39,259 nt of DNA from a virus. This document shows, in pieces, positions 23,271-34,326 of the stretch (its first letter is position 1; the number at the start of each line of letters is the position of its first letter). The stretch is from positions 1 through 39,259 of the IMG/VR virus record IMGVR_UViG_3300036761_001873. One strand, given 5' to 3'. Position numbers and translations under genes: made by a program. The notes below the pieces were generated by a model. It saw only the letters and a program-made list of their open reading frames with translations. It searched no databases and was not told where the DNA came from.

Positions 23271-23290
23271 CCGAGCAAAAGGTGTTACAA

Positions 23291-23341
23291 ATGAAGTTCT
23301 TACTGGATAGTATTTATAGCTTACCGGAGGCTGCCCTATGA
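23291..23341 (+). CDS. possible 16-residue leader peptide
   Basis: AAGGTG six bases before ATG 23291 opens a frame for MKFLLDSIYSLPEAAL, whose TGA overlaps the ATG of the nuclease gene. The nuclease gene has its own GGAGG. It may only be the tail of a longer overlapping frame and could be chance. Confidence 0.25.
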   Translation: MKFLLDSIYSLPEAAL

Positions 23342-23958
23342 GCCGCTTCCATGACGAGTTTTTCAAATCGAAAGGGACAGATCATGATAACTTATTGATT
23401 AAGTGCCTTTCAGAAGAGAATTTGAGAAAAATATCGGGCGATATACCTCTACTCGAGTTTCCAAAAAAAGCGCAAGTTCTCATTTACGATCGTTGGGGTA
23501 AGAAAGATGTTGCATGGATGATAGGAGCGGGATCGAATTGGGCCGAGCGTGATCGCCAAAAAATATTGGAACATGGTCAATCAATTGATCTGATCTCAAC
23601 TGATGTAACGAACGACGTAAATTATGAGACCGAGATCATTTGCCGAAATGGAAATTTCATCATAGGATATGCGGATTTATTAATTTCCATATCCCAAAAA
23701 GCGGAGGTAAATGCGGAATTTCAAGAATTTAAATTTAATGAATATTATGAAAGTGCGTTTTATACTTTGGTTGAGGTAAAACCAAAGTTAAACGATATCG
23801 GTGCGGCAATTCGCCAATTAAAAACATATCATCATATACTAAAGATGAAATATCAAAATCTTTCGATGGTTATTGTCTCTGGCGAAAATGTTCCTGAGAA
23901 CACACAAAATTTTCTGGAGCATGAAAAAATCAGAGTGTTGGAGAGTTCTGAGTTATGA
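23338..23958 (+). CDS. PD-(D/E)XK-type nuclease
   Basis: A 206-residue protein with GGAGG seven bases before the ATG. The middle shows a nuclease core: the strand IICRNGNFIIGYADLLI with D113, then FYTLVEVKP with E146-V-K148, then a helix (AAIRQLKTYHHILKMKY) and the strand LSMVIVSG. The D...ExK spacing and the following Gln-containing helix fit RecB/Cas4-like members of the family. It directly precedes the primase-helicase and overlaps it by four bases, so it probably processes viral or host DNA during replication or recombination. The DNA is AT-rich here. Confidence 0.65.
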   Translation: MSRFHDEFFKSKGTDHDNLLIKCLSEENLRKISGDIPLLEFPKKAQVLIYDRWGKKDVAWMIGAGSNWAERDRQKILEHGQSIDLISTDVTNDVNYETEIICRNGNFIIGYADLLISISQKAEVNAEFQEFKFNEYYESAFYTLVEVKPKLNDIGAAIRQLKTYHHILKMKYQNLSMVIVSGENVPENTQNFLEHEKIRVLESSEL

Positions 23959-26852
23959 GTGCTCTATCATTCTTTTTTACGTCAGGGGATATAATTGAAC
24001 TCCGGGCACTTGGAAAAACGAAGGGGGTCGTACAAAGCGGATATTATAAAGATCTTAAAAAATTTGAGGATACAATTGGCATTCTCGATAAAACCGGTGA
24101 GCATAAAGGAATTTATTTCGTTCTTAATAAAATAAATCCGGCCCTCTATGCTCGGCGGCCTGATTCTTTATCGACCCCAAAAGATGGAATCGCCACTACA
24201 TCAGACGCCGACATAGAAAGAAGGCGCTGGTTGCCAATCGATTTTGATCCGAAGAGACCTTCTGATATTTCTTCGACAGATGAAGAGCACGAGGCAGCGA
24301 TAGAAAGGGCAAAAGAAGTCCGAGATCATTTGAGATCTCTTGGGTGGCCAGATCCAGTTTTAGCAGACAGCGGAAATGGTGCTCATCTTCTTTATGCTAT
24401 CGACCTACCAAATAATGAAAGCGCATCCGAGAGCGTTGAACTTGTATTAAAGGCACTCAACGCGATATTCAGTGATGAAAAAATTGAAATCGATACTGCT
24501 AACTTCAATGCTGCGCGGATATGGAAAGCCTACGGCACCATAACCAGAAAAGGTGGCAATATTCCTGAACGACCATGGAGGAGATCCGCCCTTTTAGAAA
24601 TTCCTGCCGAAATACGGGCGGTGCCCGAAGAGCTTCTTGCTGGGATTGGATGGGGATTCAGGCAAAAAGAACAAGAAGAAAGATATGAACGCCCTCTGGG
24701 GAAGATCGATCTTGAGCAATGGTTAGCTTCGCATGGAATCGATATACTCCGAAGCAAACTGGCTAAGGGCGGAGGCGGGCGAATTTATGTTTTAGAGAAA
24801 TGCCCCTGGGATTCATCGCATGTGGATCGATCCGCATGGGCGATACAATTCAATTCAGGCGCGATTGCGGCAGGCTGCAAGCACAAGAGCTGCATTAACA
24901 AGGGCTGGAGAGATTTAAGAGAATTATATGAACCGTCATATAAAAGAAAAGTGCGAGAACCAATTAAAGAAAGTCCGCGCCGAGAAGAGAAACCACATCC
25001 AGAAATATCATTTGAAGATGTTACTGATCAAAAGCTAATAACCAAAGGCCCAAAGGCGGGAGAATACGAAGCACAATTTAACGCCGACAAAGCGGCGGAT
25101 GCTGTAATAAATGCGTTTAGTATTGTTTCGACACCAGACGAAAAGATATGGGTTTATGAGAACGGATATTATAGAAATGACGGAAAATTAATGATAGATA
25201 GAATACTCGACCGCACTGCCGGAAAGCTCTATACCATTAATGCATCGAAGGAAACCCAAAAGAAGATCTTCCTCCGCACAATGGAAGATTTTACAATTTT
25301 CGATCAGAACCCATATTTGTTGTGTATAAAGAACGGGGTGGTAGATCTCCTAACAGTCGGATTCCTAGAACATTCACCGAGTTATTACCTGACCTCATCA
25401 TGTCCTGTGACTTATGATCCAGAAGCGAGGCCAACCGAATTTATAAAGTTTTTAAAAGAATCGTGCTCTAATGATGATGACAGGCTTACGCTTATTGACT
25501 GGATAGTAGCATGCGCCTGCCTGACGGAATTCGAATACTTATTATTCTTGACGGGGCATGGTAGCAATGGCAAGCATGTCTATGAGGCCATCTTACAGGC
25601 TTTCTTTGGATCGGATGTCACCGAAGCTATCAGCCTGGAAGAATTGATGAACTCACGTTTTGCAATGGGCTATCTTCGCCGAGCACGAATTTGTATTTCC
25701 TCCGAGACCAATCCAAACAAGACAAAGACTGAACTCATTAAAAAGATTAGCGGCAATGATTGGCTTTCCTCGGATGTGAAGAACAAGGACCGAGCGAGAT
25801 TCCGGGCATACACCCAACTTATCTTTGATTCAAATTCCATGCCTATCTTTGAGGATACCAGCTATGGGTTCACTCGGAGATTTACGCGGGTGGTAATGCC
25901 TTTCAAGTTCGTTGATATCTTGGATGAAAAAGATCCTCTTCAGAAGAAAGCAGATCGACATTTGCTTAAAAAGCTGACTTCTGACCAGGAGTTAAGCGGT
26001 ATATTGAATCTAATTATATTAAGGGCAAAATATATAGCACTCGATAGAAAAATTCACAGAGTGGGCGATGACTTTGAACGCTATGAAGAGCAGAGCTATT
26101 CGGTTTCGGATTTTATTGAGAAGTTTATAGAATTTGATCCTCTATGTAGAGACATTAATAAGTGGCAGGCATCATCGGATTTCATATTTTCAAAATTTGA
26201 GGAATATACTAAATACGTTATTGGAGCGAAGGTTAGCAGGAAAAAGTTCTCCTTTATCCTCGGAAAGGAAAATGGCGAAGCTTCAAGAACTGTAAGACCG
26301 AACAACGCTCTAAATCTTCCTGTTAGAGGATTTAGAGGCTTATTATTCGATGAAATCACCTTTGACACATTTATGGCGGCAATAAAGACCCATTATAGTA
26401 CTTGTAACGATAGTACCGATCTTGTAACGATCTTGAAAGAGGATAGTTACACTAACAGTAAGGACATTGTAACGAATGTAACGATATACAAGCAATTATT
26501 GAAAGCTCTGAATAATCATGATAACATCATTGTAGTAAAAGAGAGTTTGACTGGGGTCGTTACAAAAAATCTAGTTGAGCCAGACGATGTCGAAAAATCA
26601 GACACTGTAAACACCGTTTCCGATGCGTTACAACCTAATGAAAAACAGTTACAGCCGAGCGTTTTGGGTACGTTACAGCCAACCCATCATTATGCTGATG
26701 ATGGCCGGGACCTAGACGAAGACGGTGAATGGGAAGATTGTGAGTATTGCGACCTCCCATTACCACCCTCCCAGCAGAATAATAAAAATGGATGGATATT
26801 TTGTTCTGATTGTCTTAAAGTGTGGTTGAAACGACAGAACGTGGAGGAATAG
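23955..26852 (+). CDS. primase-helicase: archaeo-eukaryotic primase plus SF3 (D5-like) helicase
   Basis: A 965-residue replication protein. Primase domain: D96-F-D98 in LPIDFDPKRP, then SGNGAHLLY with H144, then NFNAARIWKAYGT, the AEP motifs. A middle zinc-like part follows (CPWDSSHVDRS, GCKHKSC). Helicase domain: a D5_N-like stretch (YLLCIKNGVVDL), P-loop GHGSNGKH (534-541), an acidic motif in CISSETN and the polar FDSNSMP (about 624-630). The last residue of the P-loop is His where Ser or Thr is usual. The end has C929-x2-C932 and C950-x2-C953. It should start and unwind viral DNA. An iteron-like cluster lies in its last quarter. Confidence 0.88.
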   Translation: MSALSFFFTSGDIIELRALGKTKGVVQSGYYKDLKKFEDTIGILDKTGEHKGIYFVLNKINPALYARRPDSLSTPKDGIATTSDADIERRRWLPIDFDPKRPSDISSTDEEHEAAIERAKEVRDHLRSLGWPDPVLADSGNGAHLLYAIDLPNNESASESVELVLKALNAIFSDEKIEIDTANFNAARIWKAYGTITRKGGNIPERPWRRSALLEIPAEIRAVPEELLAGIGWGFRQKEQEERYERPLGKIDLEQWLASHGIDILRSKLAKGGGGRIYVLEKCPWDSSHVDRSAWAIQFNSGAIAAGCKHKSCINKGWRDLRELYEPSYKRKVREPIKESPRREEKPHPEISFEDVTDQKLITKGPKAGEYEAQFNADKAADAVINAFSIVSTPDEKIWVYENGYYRNDGKLMIDRILDRTAGKLYTINASKETQKKIFLRTMEDFTIFDQNPYLLCIKNGVVDLLTVGFLEHSPSYYLTSSCPVTYDPEARPTEFIKFLKESCSNDDDRLTLIDWIVACACLTEFEYLLFLTGHGSNGKHVYEAILQAFFGSDVTEAISLEELMNSRFAMGYLRRARICISSETNPNKTKTELIKKISGNDWLSSDVKNKDRARFRAYTQLIFDSNSMPIFEDTSYGFTRRFTRVVMPFKFVDILDEKDPLQKKADRHLLKKLTSDQELSGILNLIILRAKYIALDRKIHRVGDDFERYEEQSYSVSDFIEKFIEFDPLCRDINKWQASSDFIFSKFEEYTKYVIGAKVSRKKFSFILGKENGEASRTVRPNNALNLPVRGFRGLLFDEITFDTFMAAIKTHYSTCNDSTDLVTILKEDSYTNSKDIVTNVTIYKQLLKALNNHDNIIVVKESLTGVVTKNLVEPDDVEKSDTVNTVSDALQPNEKQLQPSVLGTLQPTHHYADDGRDLDEDGEWEDCEYCDLPLPPSQQNNKNGWIFCSDCLKVWLKRQNVEE
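26402..26678. repeat. iteron-like TTGTAACGAT cluster, candidate replication origin
   Basis: Direct copies: TTGTAACGAT at 26402-26411 and 26422-26431, TTGTAACGA at 26467-26475 and ATGTAACGAT at 26476-26485. Inverted copies: TCGTTACAA at 26557-26565, CGTTACAA at 26626-26633, CGTTACA at 26671-26677, and weaker GTTACA at 26446 and 26648. The first two copies fall in different codon phases (TGT-AAC-GAT and GTA-ACG-ATC), so the repeat is kept as DNA, not as protein. Their place inside the initiator-type gene fits a phage origin. Confidence 0.6.
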
Positions 26853-28869: not shown

Positions 28870-29175
28870 GTGTCGAGCGAACCTAGGGACCTTGGGCCGT
28901 CTTCTCAAGCCGTATCTGGTCCTATGGTGGACCAGGGGCACGGAATCCAAGGGGAGACTGTCGAAGATTGCCGGTGCAATTTCTGTCTTTGTGGAAAGGA
29001 GATATCTCATGTTAATGTTGGGACAGACTTTCGCCCCCTCGAGATATCTCCTTCCTGGCCGGTGGCTTACCATAAGCCCTGCGGCCTGATGGGTGATATG
29101 GGCGGCTTGGAGAGGCCGGTGGTATGCCCACATTGTGGATGGCGGAGAAAGGCCCGGAAAGCTCGGAAATCATAG
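28870..29175 (+). CDS. zinc-binding protein, unknown
   Basis: Up to 101 residues from GTG 28870; ATG 28924 would give 83 residues. The start is uncertain because neither has a strong ribosome site. Cysteines and His form a treble-clef-like set: CRCNFCLCGKEIS, then YHKPCGLM, then VVCPHCGWRRK. The end is basic. It may bind DNA next to the packaging region. Two copies of the palindrome GAGATATCTC occur inside it (28999 and 29041). Confidence 0.55.
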   Translation: MSSEPRDLGPSSQAVSGPMVDQGHGIQGETVEDCRCNFCLCGKEISHVNVGTDFRPLEISPSWPVAYHKPCGLMGDMGGLERPVVCPHCGWRRKARKARKS

Positions 29176-29321: not shown

Positions 29322-29771
29322 GTGCCCCCTAAATGTACTATTTGCTGTCATAAAAAACGATGTGCGATAGATCAATATATCGTTGATGGTGAAACATCGC
29401 GAAACATCGCGAAACAGTTCAAGGTTGGTTATTCGTCGGTCGAACGACATATTAAAGCGGGCCATGTCTCAGAACCAATAAAGGCAGCCGAACGCGAAAA
29501 ACTGATCAAACAAGGTAAAACACTTCATGAACGACTCCGGGATGCTCAGGATATTTGCCTGGAGGCTGCCCTACAAGCTAAGGCGGATGATCTTCGGGCC
29601 TTTGGCGGTTGTATGGCGGCCATGATGAAAGGGCTAGATATCGAAGCCAAGATAACTATACCGGAAAATAGGAATGTCAATCTCACTATCACAGATGGGA
29701 CAGATATCGATGCCCGCCTGGAGTTGCTCGCAGAAAGACGAAAGGCAAGAAGAGATCCAACTAATTCATGA
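29322..29771 (+). CDS. terS: terminase small subunit
   Basis: A 149-residue protein from GTG 29322 with an upstream AAGGA. It starts with a CTICCHKKRC knuckle, then a helix-turn-helix at about residues 15-45 (AIDQYIVDGETSRNIAKQF, KVGYSSVERHIKAGH), a helical middle (KTLHERLRDAQDICLEAALQ) that would oligomerise, and a short end. DNA recognition by a HTH at the start and position directly before the large subunit make this TerS, which selects viral DNA for packaging. The large subunit gene begins inside its end. Confidence 0.72.
   Translation: MPPKCTICCHKKRCAIDQYIVDGETSRNIAKQFKVGYSSVERHIKAGHVSEPIKAAEREKLIKQGKTLHERLRDAQDICLEAALQAKADDLRAFGGCMAAMMKGLDIEAKITIPENRNVNLTITDGTDIDARLELLAERRKARRDPTNS
29391..29416 (+). 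repeat. 10-bp tandem repeat inside the small terminase gene
   Basis: GAAACATCGC occurs twice in a row and is followed by GAAACA. As 10 is not a multiple of 3, the copies are read in different phases, so the match is at DNA level. It lies in the codons for the HTH. Some phages keep their pac site inside terS, which makes this a second candidate recognition site. Confidence 0.5.
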
Positions 29772-30513
29772 TATTTACCGGGAGACTCCTTCTCTTTGGG
29801 TTGAAGACACTTTCGGCATCACTTTAGATTTTTGGCAAGCTCAGATGTTAGATAGCCAAAAGAATCGAATCTGTCTTAACATCCACCGCCAGGGGGGGAA
29901 GAGCTTCATGTCCTCCTTGATGTGCTTGCACCGTGCCCTTTTCTATCCTAAAAGTCTCAGTTTGATTGTCGCTCCAGCCCTCACCCAGAGCCAAGAGAAC
30001 TTTGGAAAGATCAGAGACCTTATAGACCAGCTCCCATCTAGGCCCATCTTTGATGAATCTACAAAGCTCCGCTTAAGGCTAGATTCAGGATCAAGGATAT
30101 TATGTTTGCCGGGTGGCACTAAAGGGAGAACTATCAGAGGATTCTCCAGGCCGGATGTCATAGTCGAAGATGAAAGCGCCCAGTGCCCAGACGAGCTCTA
30201 CGAGAGCCTCACGCCCATGATGGCAGTACATCCATCATGTAAGTTTATCCTTTGCTCTACTCCATTTGGTCAGCGGGGGCATTTCTACAAGACATGGATA
30301 GAGGGCGGCCCAGAATGGCTCAAGCTCCGGGTGGTGGCTAAGGAATGTAGCCGGATCTCACAAGAATTCCTAGATGAAGAAAAGATACGACATGGCCCCT
30401 TCGTATTTGCGCAGGAATACGAGGGTGAATTTGTGGCCTCGGAAACGCAGCTTATCAGCCATGAATCGATTATGAAAGCGATGGATAGCAGTATTCCTCT
30501 TATTGAAATATGA
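29710..30513 (+). CDS. terL: terminase large subunit, ATPase part
   Basis: A product of about 267 residues. The start is uncertain: ATG 29710 is chosen, with ATGs at 29674 and 29695 also in frame, all overlapping terS. ATPase motifs are clear: WQAQMLDSQ adenine-type region, Walker A RQGGKS (60-65), and Walker B DVIVEDES with E155 as catalytic Glu. The motor coupling motif region CKFILCSTPFGQRG follows. The frame ends with TGA before the nuclease domain, which is encoded by the next gene. It powers DNA translocation into the head. Confidence 0.85.
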   Translation: MPAWSCSQKDERQEEIQLIHDIYRETPSLWVEDTFGITLDFWQAQMLDSQKNRICLNIHRQGGKSFMSSLMCLHRALFYPKSLSLIVAPALTQSQENFGKIRDLIDQLPSRPIFDESTKLRLRLDSGSRILCLPGGTKGRTIRGFSRPDVIVEDESAQCPDELYESLTPMMAVHPSCKFILCSTPFGQRGHFYKTWIEGGPEWLKLRVVAKECSRISQEFLDEEKIRHGPFVFAQEYEGEFVASETQLISHESIMKAMDSSIPLIEI

Positions 30514-31112
30514 CCTATATCTTAGCCCTTGATCCGGCCCAGCTCCGAGATTGGAGTGCCCTGGCGGCTGTGGATATGCAGTACGCCCAAGCAAAAATAA
30601 TCAATGGCGCGGCAACACCGGCCAGGTTTGAGTACTCTCTCGTGGCCATGAATCGCAAGCAAGGTCTTCCTTATGATCAGATCGTGGAATGGGTCGTCAG
30701 AACTCTAAAAAACCCCGCGTTCAATAAGCAATCTCCGCCCCAATTCGTGTTGGATGCTACGGGGGTGGGGGTCGCAGTCAATGACATGTTCCGGGTCAAG
30801 CACGTAAGGGCCATGGCAGTCACGATAACCCCTGGCAATGGCCTGAATCGCGAAGGATTCATTATACACTTAGGGAAGGCCAGGCTCATCGGCAAGTTCC
30901 TAGGGGCCTTTGATGCTGGCAAGGTCCACGTTAACCCGAATATGCCCATCTGGCCCTTAGTGGAAAGAGAGATGCTCTCCTTCCGGGCCGAGATGAGCGC
31001 ACAGGGTCGCGTGAAGATGGAGGCCGAGCGGGGAGAGAACGATGATATGCTCTTTGCCCTAGCGCTTTGCGTTTGGTATGGCGAAGAAATCTTGAGGGGC
31101 GGGCGACTATGA
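30510..31112 (+). CDS. terminase large subunit, nuclease part (separate gene)
   Basis: A 200-residue protein with the RNase H-like terminase nuclease fold: D8 in YILALDPAQ, D82 in FVLDATGVG, and D178/D179 in RGENDDMLFALALCVWY. These are the metal-binding acids of TerL nucleases. It starts with ATGA overlapping the ATPase stop, so the normally single large terminase is split into two chains here. No strong ribosome site precedes it, so termination-reinitiation is likely. It cuts concatemers during packaging. Confidence 0.83.
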   Translation: MTYILALDPAQLRDWSALAAVDMQYAQAKIINGAATPARFEYSLVAMNRKQGLPYDQIVEWVVRTLKNPAFNKQSPPQFVLDATGVGVAVNDMFRVKHVRAMAVTITPGNGLNREGFIIHLGKARLIGKFLGAFDAGKVHVNPNMPIWPLVEREMLSFRAEMSAQGRVKMEAERGENDDMLFALALCVWYGEEILRGGRL

Positions 31113-33437: not shown

Positions 33438-33456
33438 AACGTAGGTGATATAGAAG

Positions 33457-34326
33457 ATGATAAATTCTTTCATTCCCGAACTTTGGGAGGCTAATCTGCT
33501 CGTAGGCGCCAGGAAGTTCTTGGTATACGGGCAGCCCGGTGTAATAAACCGGAACTACGAGGGCCAGTTTGCCCAGAAGGGCGATACCCTCCACATAACC
33601 GGCATCGGGCCGGTCACAGTCGGAGACTACACAAAGGGCACTGATATGGGCGCTCCTGAGCAGTTGACCGATGCTGAGGCAACCTTGATTATATCCCAAC
33701 AGAAATATTTCAATTTCGCTGTCGAGGATTTGGACAGGGCCCAGGCAATGGGCAATTTCGAAAGTCAGGCTAGAGATGAGGCCATGTACGCCATCGCAGA
33801 CGCACGCGACCAGTACATTGCTGGACTCTGGGGCGAGGCCAGCGCATCTAACAGGCTCGGGACGACTGCGGCGGCTATCGTGCCCGTCCTGACTGAAGCC
33901 GCGGTGCTGAACATCTTCAATGTCCTGATCGATTGTGCCACTCTCCTGACCAACTCAAGGGTCCCTCAGGAAGGACGGTTCATCGTAGTACCCCCCTGGA
34001 TCGAGGCCATGATCGTGAAGGAGTTCCACATGTCCGGTGCTTCGGCCCCCGGCCTGGGTACGGTGGCTGCCATGAATGGCTTTATAGGCCGGGTGGCAGG
34101 CTTTGACGTCCTGGTCAGCCATAATGTGCCCTGCGCAACTGCCACAACACTCTATAGATGTCTGTTTGGCACGTCAAAGGCCATCACCTTCGCAGACCAG
34201 ATCAATAAGGTCGAAGCCATCAGGGATCCCGACCAGTTCAGGGACGTGATCAGGGGCCTCGATGTCTATGGCGCAAAGGTCGTACAGCCTGACTATCTCG
34301 GCGTCCTAACGGCGAGCGTGGCCTGA
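33457..34326 (+). CDS. major capsid protein, HK97 fold
   Basis: A 289-residue protein behind a GGTGAT site. Features of the HK97 fold: N-arm start FIPELWEANLLVGARKFLV, E-loop region GDTLHITGIGPVTVGDYT, the spine helix FESQARDEAMYAIADARDQY, and P-domain strands (EGRFIVVPPWIEAMIVKE, FIGRVAGFDVLVSHNV), ending with GLDVYGAKVVQPDYLGVLTA. The length is on the small side, consistent with a separate scaffold gene. It builds the icosahedral head. Confidence 0.9.
   Translation: MINSFIPELWEANLLVGARKFLVYGQPGVINRNYEGQFAQKGDTLHITGIGPVTVGDYTKGTDMGAPEQLTDAEATLIISQQKYFNFAVEDLDRAQAMGNFESQARDEAMYAIADARDQYIAGLWGEASASNRLGTTAAAIVPVLTEAAVLNIFNVLIDCATLLTNSRVPQEGRFIVVPPWIEAMIVKEFHMSGASAPGLGTVAAMNGFIGRVAGFDVLVSHNVPCATATTLYRCLFGTSKAITFADQINKVEAIRDPDQFRDVIRGLDVYGAKVVQPDYLGVLTASVA

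Follow-up and report, generated by a model that had tools for sequence, protein, structure and literature searches.

An iteron array embedded in the 3′ coding part of a viral primase-helicase gene as a candidate replication origin

Introduction

Initiation at short repeats has been described for several mobile elements. The winged helix of the P4 alpha protein binds repeats in the origin, after which the DNA is unwound and primed (PMC4234260). In SaPI Rep and in Cch2 the C-terminal domain recognizes iterons beside the protein's own gene, with Rep apparently acting as two hexamers (PMC7581432). The origins of PICIs consist of an A+T-rich region flanked by two iteron sets (PMC6092414), and lambdoid origins are found inside gene O (PMC7466680).

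Here we analyze a viral stretch of 39,259 bp, referred to as the window, which corresponds to positions 1 to 39,259 of IMG/VR record IMGVR_UViG_3300036761_001873 and has a 104-bp direct terminal repeat. A repeat array at 26403-26677 probably represents an iteron origin that is embedded in the 3′ coding part of its own initiator gene, the same gene encoding the protein proposed to read it.

Like P4 alpha, the window protein joins primase, SF3 helicase and a (predicted) C-terminal winged helix in a single chain that is associated with short repeats. It differs in that P4 alpha has a TOPRIM-type primase (PMC4234260), whereas a Pfam search found no TOPRIM match in the window primase-helicase. The iteron sequences differ as well, and in the window protein the winged helix is followed by ~150 residues that contain the array. 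With SaPI/PICI Rep and SCCmec Cch2 the window system would share a self-loading helicase, C-terminal iteron recognition and iterons associated with the initiator's own gene (PMC7581432), and as in PICIs two sets of iterons flank an A+T-rich region (PMC6092414). However, the origins of those elements lie just downstream of the gene, immediately 3′ of rep; in the comparator Staphylococcus PI-Sepi-HH2 the array begins 15 bp ahead of the stop codon and reaches ~260 bp beyond it. The window array, by contrast, is located within the coding region. By analogy, the window array may work like a PICI origin, although it is placed otherwise. Lambda O offers the likeness in placement, with iterons and an A+T-rich tract inside the initiator gene (PMC7466680), but O is neither helicase nor primase, and PHROG and Pfam relate the window gene to primase/helicase families only and not to O. 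The archaeal mobile element pRN1, a crenarchaeal plasmid, encodes in ORF904 a primase-helicase with a C-terminal winged helix and has its origin adjoining the gene (PMC4234260); that origin is a downstream stem-loop without iterons. Among ten comparison D5 genes, arrays were detected downstream of the gene in L253 (strong), L254 and L256 (both weak) and upstream in the haloarchaeal plasmids L258 and L260 and in L259 (weak), but in none of the ten inside the 3′ coding part. We regard the window array as a novel form of candidate P4/SaPI-type origin, set within the coding region.

Results

The window gene encodes a P4/D5-family primase-helicase

The gene that contains the array is the following.

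23955-26852, + strand: primase-helicase gene of the P4/D5 family, 965 aa, proposed initiator containing its own origin

Pfam detects D5_N (E 2e-14) and DUF5906 in its product, which also matches PHROG 1829 and 864 ('DNA primase'). TIGR01613 ('phage/plasmid primase, P4 family') is matched with an E-value of 1.9e-35 and 122.2 bits against a curated cut-off of 108.7, so the protein has both D5_N and the SF3 helicase core that characterize the P4/D5 family. The helicase part matches PDB 7ola, annotated as 'DNA primase' (E 5e-19), which we take to be the SaPI5 primase-helicase. A structure model of the whole helicase part was too poor for use (pLDDT 53).

The nearest annotated relative is vir515 (BK063672), assigned to Methanosarcinales. 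It also shares with the window the tape measure protein (~43% identity) and the product of 33454-34323, whose vir515 counterpart is annotated as major head protein. An archaeal host of a Methanosarcinales-like kind is therefore likely, and the window virus is probably a tailed virus of methane-cycle archaea.

Two further observations were made around the terminase genes. In both the window (29656-31109) and the related contig L247 (10676-12096), the large terminase may be encoded by two overlapping ORFs instead of one; the terminase ATPase match lies in the first ORF and the second is its conserved neighbor. Before the terminase genes, the palindrome GAGATATCTC occurs twice, 42 bp apart, at 28997-29052, with flanks that extend it to 13-bp inverted arms (AAGGAGATATCTC / GAGATATCTCCTT), possibly forming a hairpin or an operator pair.

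A dense two-sided repeat array lies inside the gene

A preliminary description of the window had reported at least four direct and three inverted TGTAACG-type sites within 280 bp. Exactly four copies on the + strand (starting at 26403, 26423, 26468 and 26477) and three on the − strand (26558, 26626 and 26671) were found within 26403-26677, wholly inside the coding region and about 175-450 bp before the stop codon. They make up seven of the nine TGTAACG copies in the 39,259 bp, for which 1.36 would be expected; nine were reached in no shuffle. Isolated motif copies lie upstream of the gene at 23604 (+) and 23284 (−). The motif is not equally dense elsewhere, and no other canonical 6- or 7-mer attains the same density in any 280-bp stretch of the window. 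For TGTAAC, nine of 19 copies fall in the array, with additional − strand copies at 26446 and 26648. The 10-bp form TTGTAACGAT is exact only twice, leaving TGTAAC(G) as the core. The array is made up as follows.

26403-26411, + strand: iteron TGTAACGAT
26412-26420, + strand: diverged iteron AGTACCGAT of the C-type, with the same sequence at the homologous site of L003
26423-26431, + strand: iteron TGTAACGAT
26443-26451, − strand: iteron TGTAACTAT, inverted
26468-26476, + strand: iteron TGTAACGAA, first copy of the tandem pair, whose 9-bp period every relative shares
26477-26485, + strand: iteron TGTAACGAT, second of the tandem pair
26486-26555, no strand: A+T-rich gap, 69% A+T, candidate unwinding element
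26556-26564, − strand: iteron TGTAACGAC, inverted, leftmost copy of the right block
26624-26632, − strand: iteron TGTAACGCA, inverted
26645-26653, − strand: weak iteron TGTAACTGT, inverted
26669-26677, − strand: iteron TGTAACGTA, inverted

The array exceeds what coding constraint produces. In 2000 synonymous-codon shuffles of the gene, which leave the protein unchanged, TGTAAC occurred on average 1.23 times and at most five times compared with the nine observed, and the best 7-mer cluster reached at most four copies compared with seven. The copies occupy all three reading phases and both strands. That the first two differ in phase, as initially noticed, is correct (phases 0 and 2), and the selection on DNA deduced from it is upheld by the amino-acid-altering change between relatives described below.

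As expected of an iteron origin, these repeats within a putative initiator gene adjoin an A+T-rich element. Among 70-bp windows the gap ranks in the top 2.5% for A+T content and in the top 2.1% for duplex instability, though it is not the least stable stretch of the window. The four close relatives have similar gaps. Together with that of the window, these five gaps contain 63-72% A+T, each being among the 0.2-5.5% most A+T-rich windows of its own contig. Cumulative GC skew, which had been proposed as a check at 26.4-26.7 kb, was of no help: it climbs smoothly through 26.4 kb without a turn at the array, and we rejected it as origin evidence.

Place and plan of the array are conserved while the iteron changes

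Only four close relatives were found in IMG/VR (L003, L089, L231 and L247), vir515 and its near-copy L246 being more distant. Two further degenerate protein-motif scans of IMG/VR added only three chance hits to these four contigs, and neither the protein nor an alignment, used as query, found a relative among 84,980 prokaryote genomes. In L003, L089, L231 and vir515 the densest repeat cluster occupies the corresponding part of the primase-helicase gene, each with its own iteron, and the TAACGAT cluster of L247 is located there as well. The iteron is TGTAACGAT in the window, L089 and L247 (in L247 in the forms TGTAACGA(T/A) and ATAACGAT), TGTACCGAT in L003 and L231, and TCTCAGGTA in vir515. All arrays, in the window and the five relatives, follow one plan, in which a left block precedes a tandem pair and inverted copies lie on the far side of a 67-84 bp gap. 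The tandem pair sits at 0 and +9 in six of six arrays (window, L003, L089, L231, L247 and vir515), with the left block at about −83 to −25 and the first right inverted copy at +85 to +102. Of the conservation in relatives by which the repeats were to be judged, place and plan thus held in five relatives and the iteron sequence itself did not. The primase-helicase is the only window gene common to all array-bearing contigs, which is partly a limit of the data because L089 and L231 are short contig fragments.

In the helicase, window and L003 are sisters (80% identity), as are L247 and L231. At the DNA level window and L003 are 74.6% identical over 25058-26485, and their nucleotide similarity stops exactly where the tandem pair ends, at 26485.

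Modules are swapped around the helicase, winged helix and array core (window 23955-25000 and 26720-26849; also L003, L231 and L247). The N-terminus is a Prim-Pol in L003 and of another type in the window and L247, and a CxxC...CxxC C-terminus is common to the window, L231 and L247 and lacking in L003. Between otherwise unlike upstream regions, a 45-bp patch (window 23275-23318, L003 1542-1586) is 84% identical; in the window it includes GTTACAA and lies in an ORF that encodes VLQMKxLLDSIY close to its end. The patch may be a shared peptide, a promoter or a second cis site.

Iterons change in concert between sister genes

Comparison of the two sister pairs revealed an A-to-C change at 11 of 12 homologous iteron sites. 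For window and L003 six of seven sites are changed against a background rate of 0.074, and for L247 and L231 five of five gap-free-aligned sites against 0.104. The single unchanged site is 26412, which is C-type in the window as well. The change is found on both strands and replaces encoded residues (for example VT to VP, with Thr to Pro at residue 840), which argues for selection on the DNA rather than on the protein. Its concerted nature implies a single reader with changed specificity, and the joint change of the repeats in relatives points to matched evolution of protein and site.

The left block of L003 is laid out like that of the window, and that of L231 like that of L247. Since left-block layouts follow the sister pairs, two separate A/C switches are favored. 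The right blocks of L003 and L231 are alike (+85, +97), which may reflect exchange between lineages.

A predicted winged helix precedes the array

Two features of the protein may be relevant for iteron reading.

26094-26390, + strand: winged-helix domain, residues 714-812, proposed to read the iterons, directly upstream of the array
26289-26291, + strand: codon of Thr779, candidate specificity residue, in strand beta-2 of the wing (the first wing strand; model position 66, strand 65-67)

The AlphaFold2 model of residues 714-812 has winged-helix topology (pLDDT 84, pTM 0.74). Its top PDB match is 1dp7, the RFX1 DNA-binding domain on DNA, with a weak E-value of 0.03, probability 1.00 and a TM-score of 0.75 by target, and the model also matches C-terminal parts of viral D5-like helicase/primase proteins. 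The C-terminal winged helix typical of the P4/D5 family is thus present by prediction, in an RFX/P4-OBD-type form. A PDB sequence search with the winged helix alone gave nothing significant, and Pfam RFX matches L246 weakly and below the cut-off (E 0.022). The RFX half-site is RGYAAC. TGTAAC fits it at five of six positions, but for a random 9-mer we estimate a chance of ~12%, so the resemblance was not used as evidence. The folds of the P4 OBD and the RFX1 DBD have been described as similar (PMC10516667), and in RFX1 the wing rather than the helix reads the major groove (PMC4333399).

Residue 779 is Thr in members with TGTAAC arrays and Lys in those with TGTACC arrays. Among 260 aligned columns only this one and residue 840, itself encoded by an iteron, split the two groups perfectly. 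Other non-sister 3/2 splits give 0-3 perfect columns each; the count for 779 alone is therefore not significant and the residue is a candidate, not a result, for tracking the A/C switch as a specificity residue, with only suggestive statistics. We tentatively propose an RFX-like wing with a one-residue/one-base code, in which Thr779 would read TGTAAC and Lys TGTACC; this code might have flipped more than once while the embedded array was rewritten in concert. We consider this speculative proposal less likely than not to be correct.

Similar motifs occur at other loci

L142, L146, L190 and about 22 other loci carry TGTACCGA arrays of 8-15 copies that either directly follow a TOPRIM primase / AAA_25 helicase gene or overlap its end; this gene is unrelated to the window gene. 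TGTACC arrays lie inside another initiator gene family (L129 5877-6111, L206, L162, L208 and L229), of which L129 is lambda O-like by PHROG, and the same octamer thus seems to be used by unrelated initiators. TGTAAC arrays are found 26-28 bp downstream of genes for proteins of 821-823 aa (L043 7360-7659, L120 844-1139).

Discussion

The alternative initially offered for the cluster, an iteron origin or a binding array for the primase-helicase, is the reading best supported by the comparisons, as the array is unmatched elsewhere in the window and kept in relatives. In the proposed mechanism, the winged helix (residues 714-812) would bind TGTAACGAT iterons, and the oppositely oriented left and right blocks would load two helicase assemblies in face-to-face orientation on either side of 26486-26555. 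The A+T-rich gap would then melt and the fused primase begin synthesis.

It is unlikely, though conceivable, that the origin or regulatory array is read by a different protein, viral or from the host (for example an Orc1/Cdc6-like initiator), its location in this gene being incidental. Unrelated replication genes can also have TGTACCGA arrays next to or within them, so the motif by itself does not reveal its reader. On the other hand, the primase-helicase is the sole gene that the window shares with all array-bearing contigs (within the limit set by the two fragments), and the adjacent predicted winged helix provides a ready reader. An iteron that changes between sister genes under a constant plan also fits a fast-evolving viral reader better than a conserved host protein.

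We regard it as quite improbable that the initiator binds the array for operator or replication control (autoregulation, copy control or a partition-like role) and starts replication elsewhere. Iterons often control replication too, and the isolated motif copies upstream of the gene could be operators. However, most sites are located 2.4-2.7 kb past the gene start and not at a promoter, and a split array around an A+T-rich gap, kept across relatives, is the plan of known PICI-type origins (PMC6092414). Finally, a by-product of a repetitive protein linker or chance is hardly credible: several copies do encode similar peptides (VT/VP, LQP) and the tandem pair shares one reading phase with three right-block copies, but the shuffles stayed well below the observed count, the copies use three phases and two strands, and a change concerted across strands and phases goes beyond what a protein repeat explains.

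An embedded iteron origin read by its own gene product would have consequences for the evolution of these viruses. Initiator and site, being in one DNA stretch, would travel together and could switch specificity together, and such a placement could help in that recombination hardly separates the two. If the proposed wing code is true, origin incompatibility would evolve via a compact protein-DNA code within one gene. To our knowledge, origins of tailed archaeal viruses have rarely been located. The window and its relatives provide a sharply defined candidate origin, a likely reader and natural variants with every site changed together. They therefore form a compact system for testing how an initiator may switch specificity along with its many DNA sites and still function.
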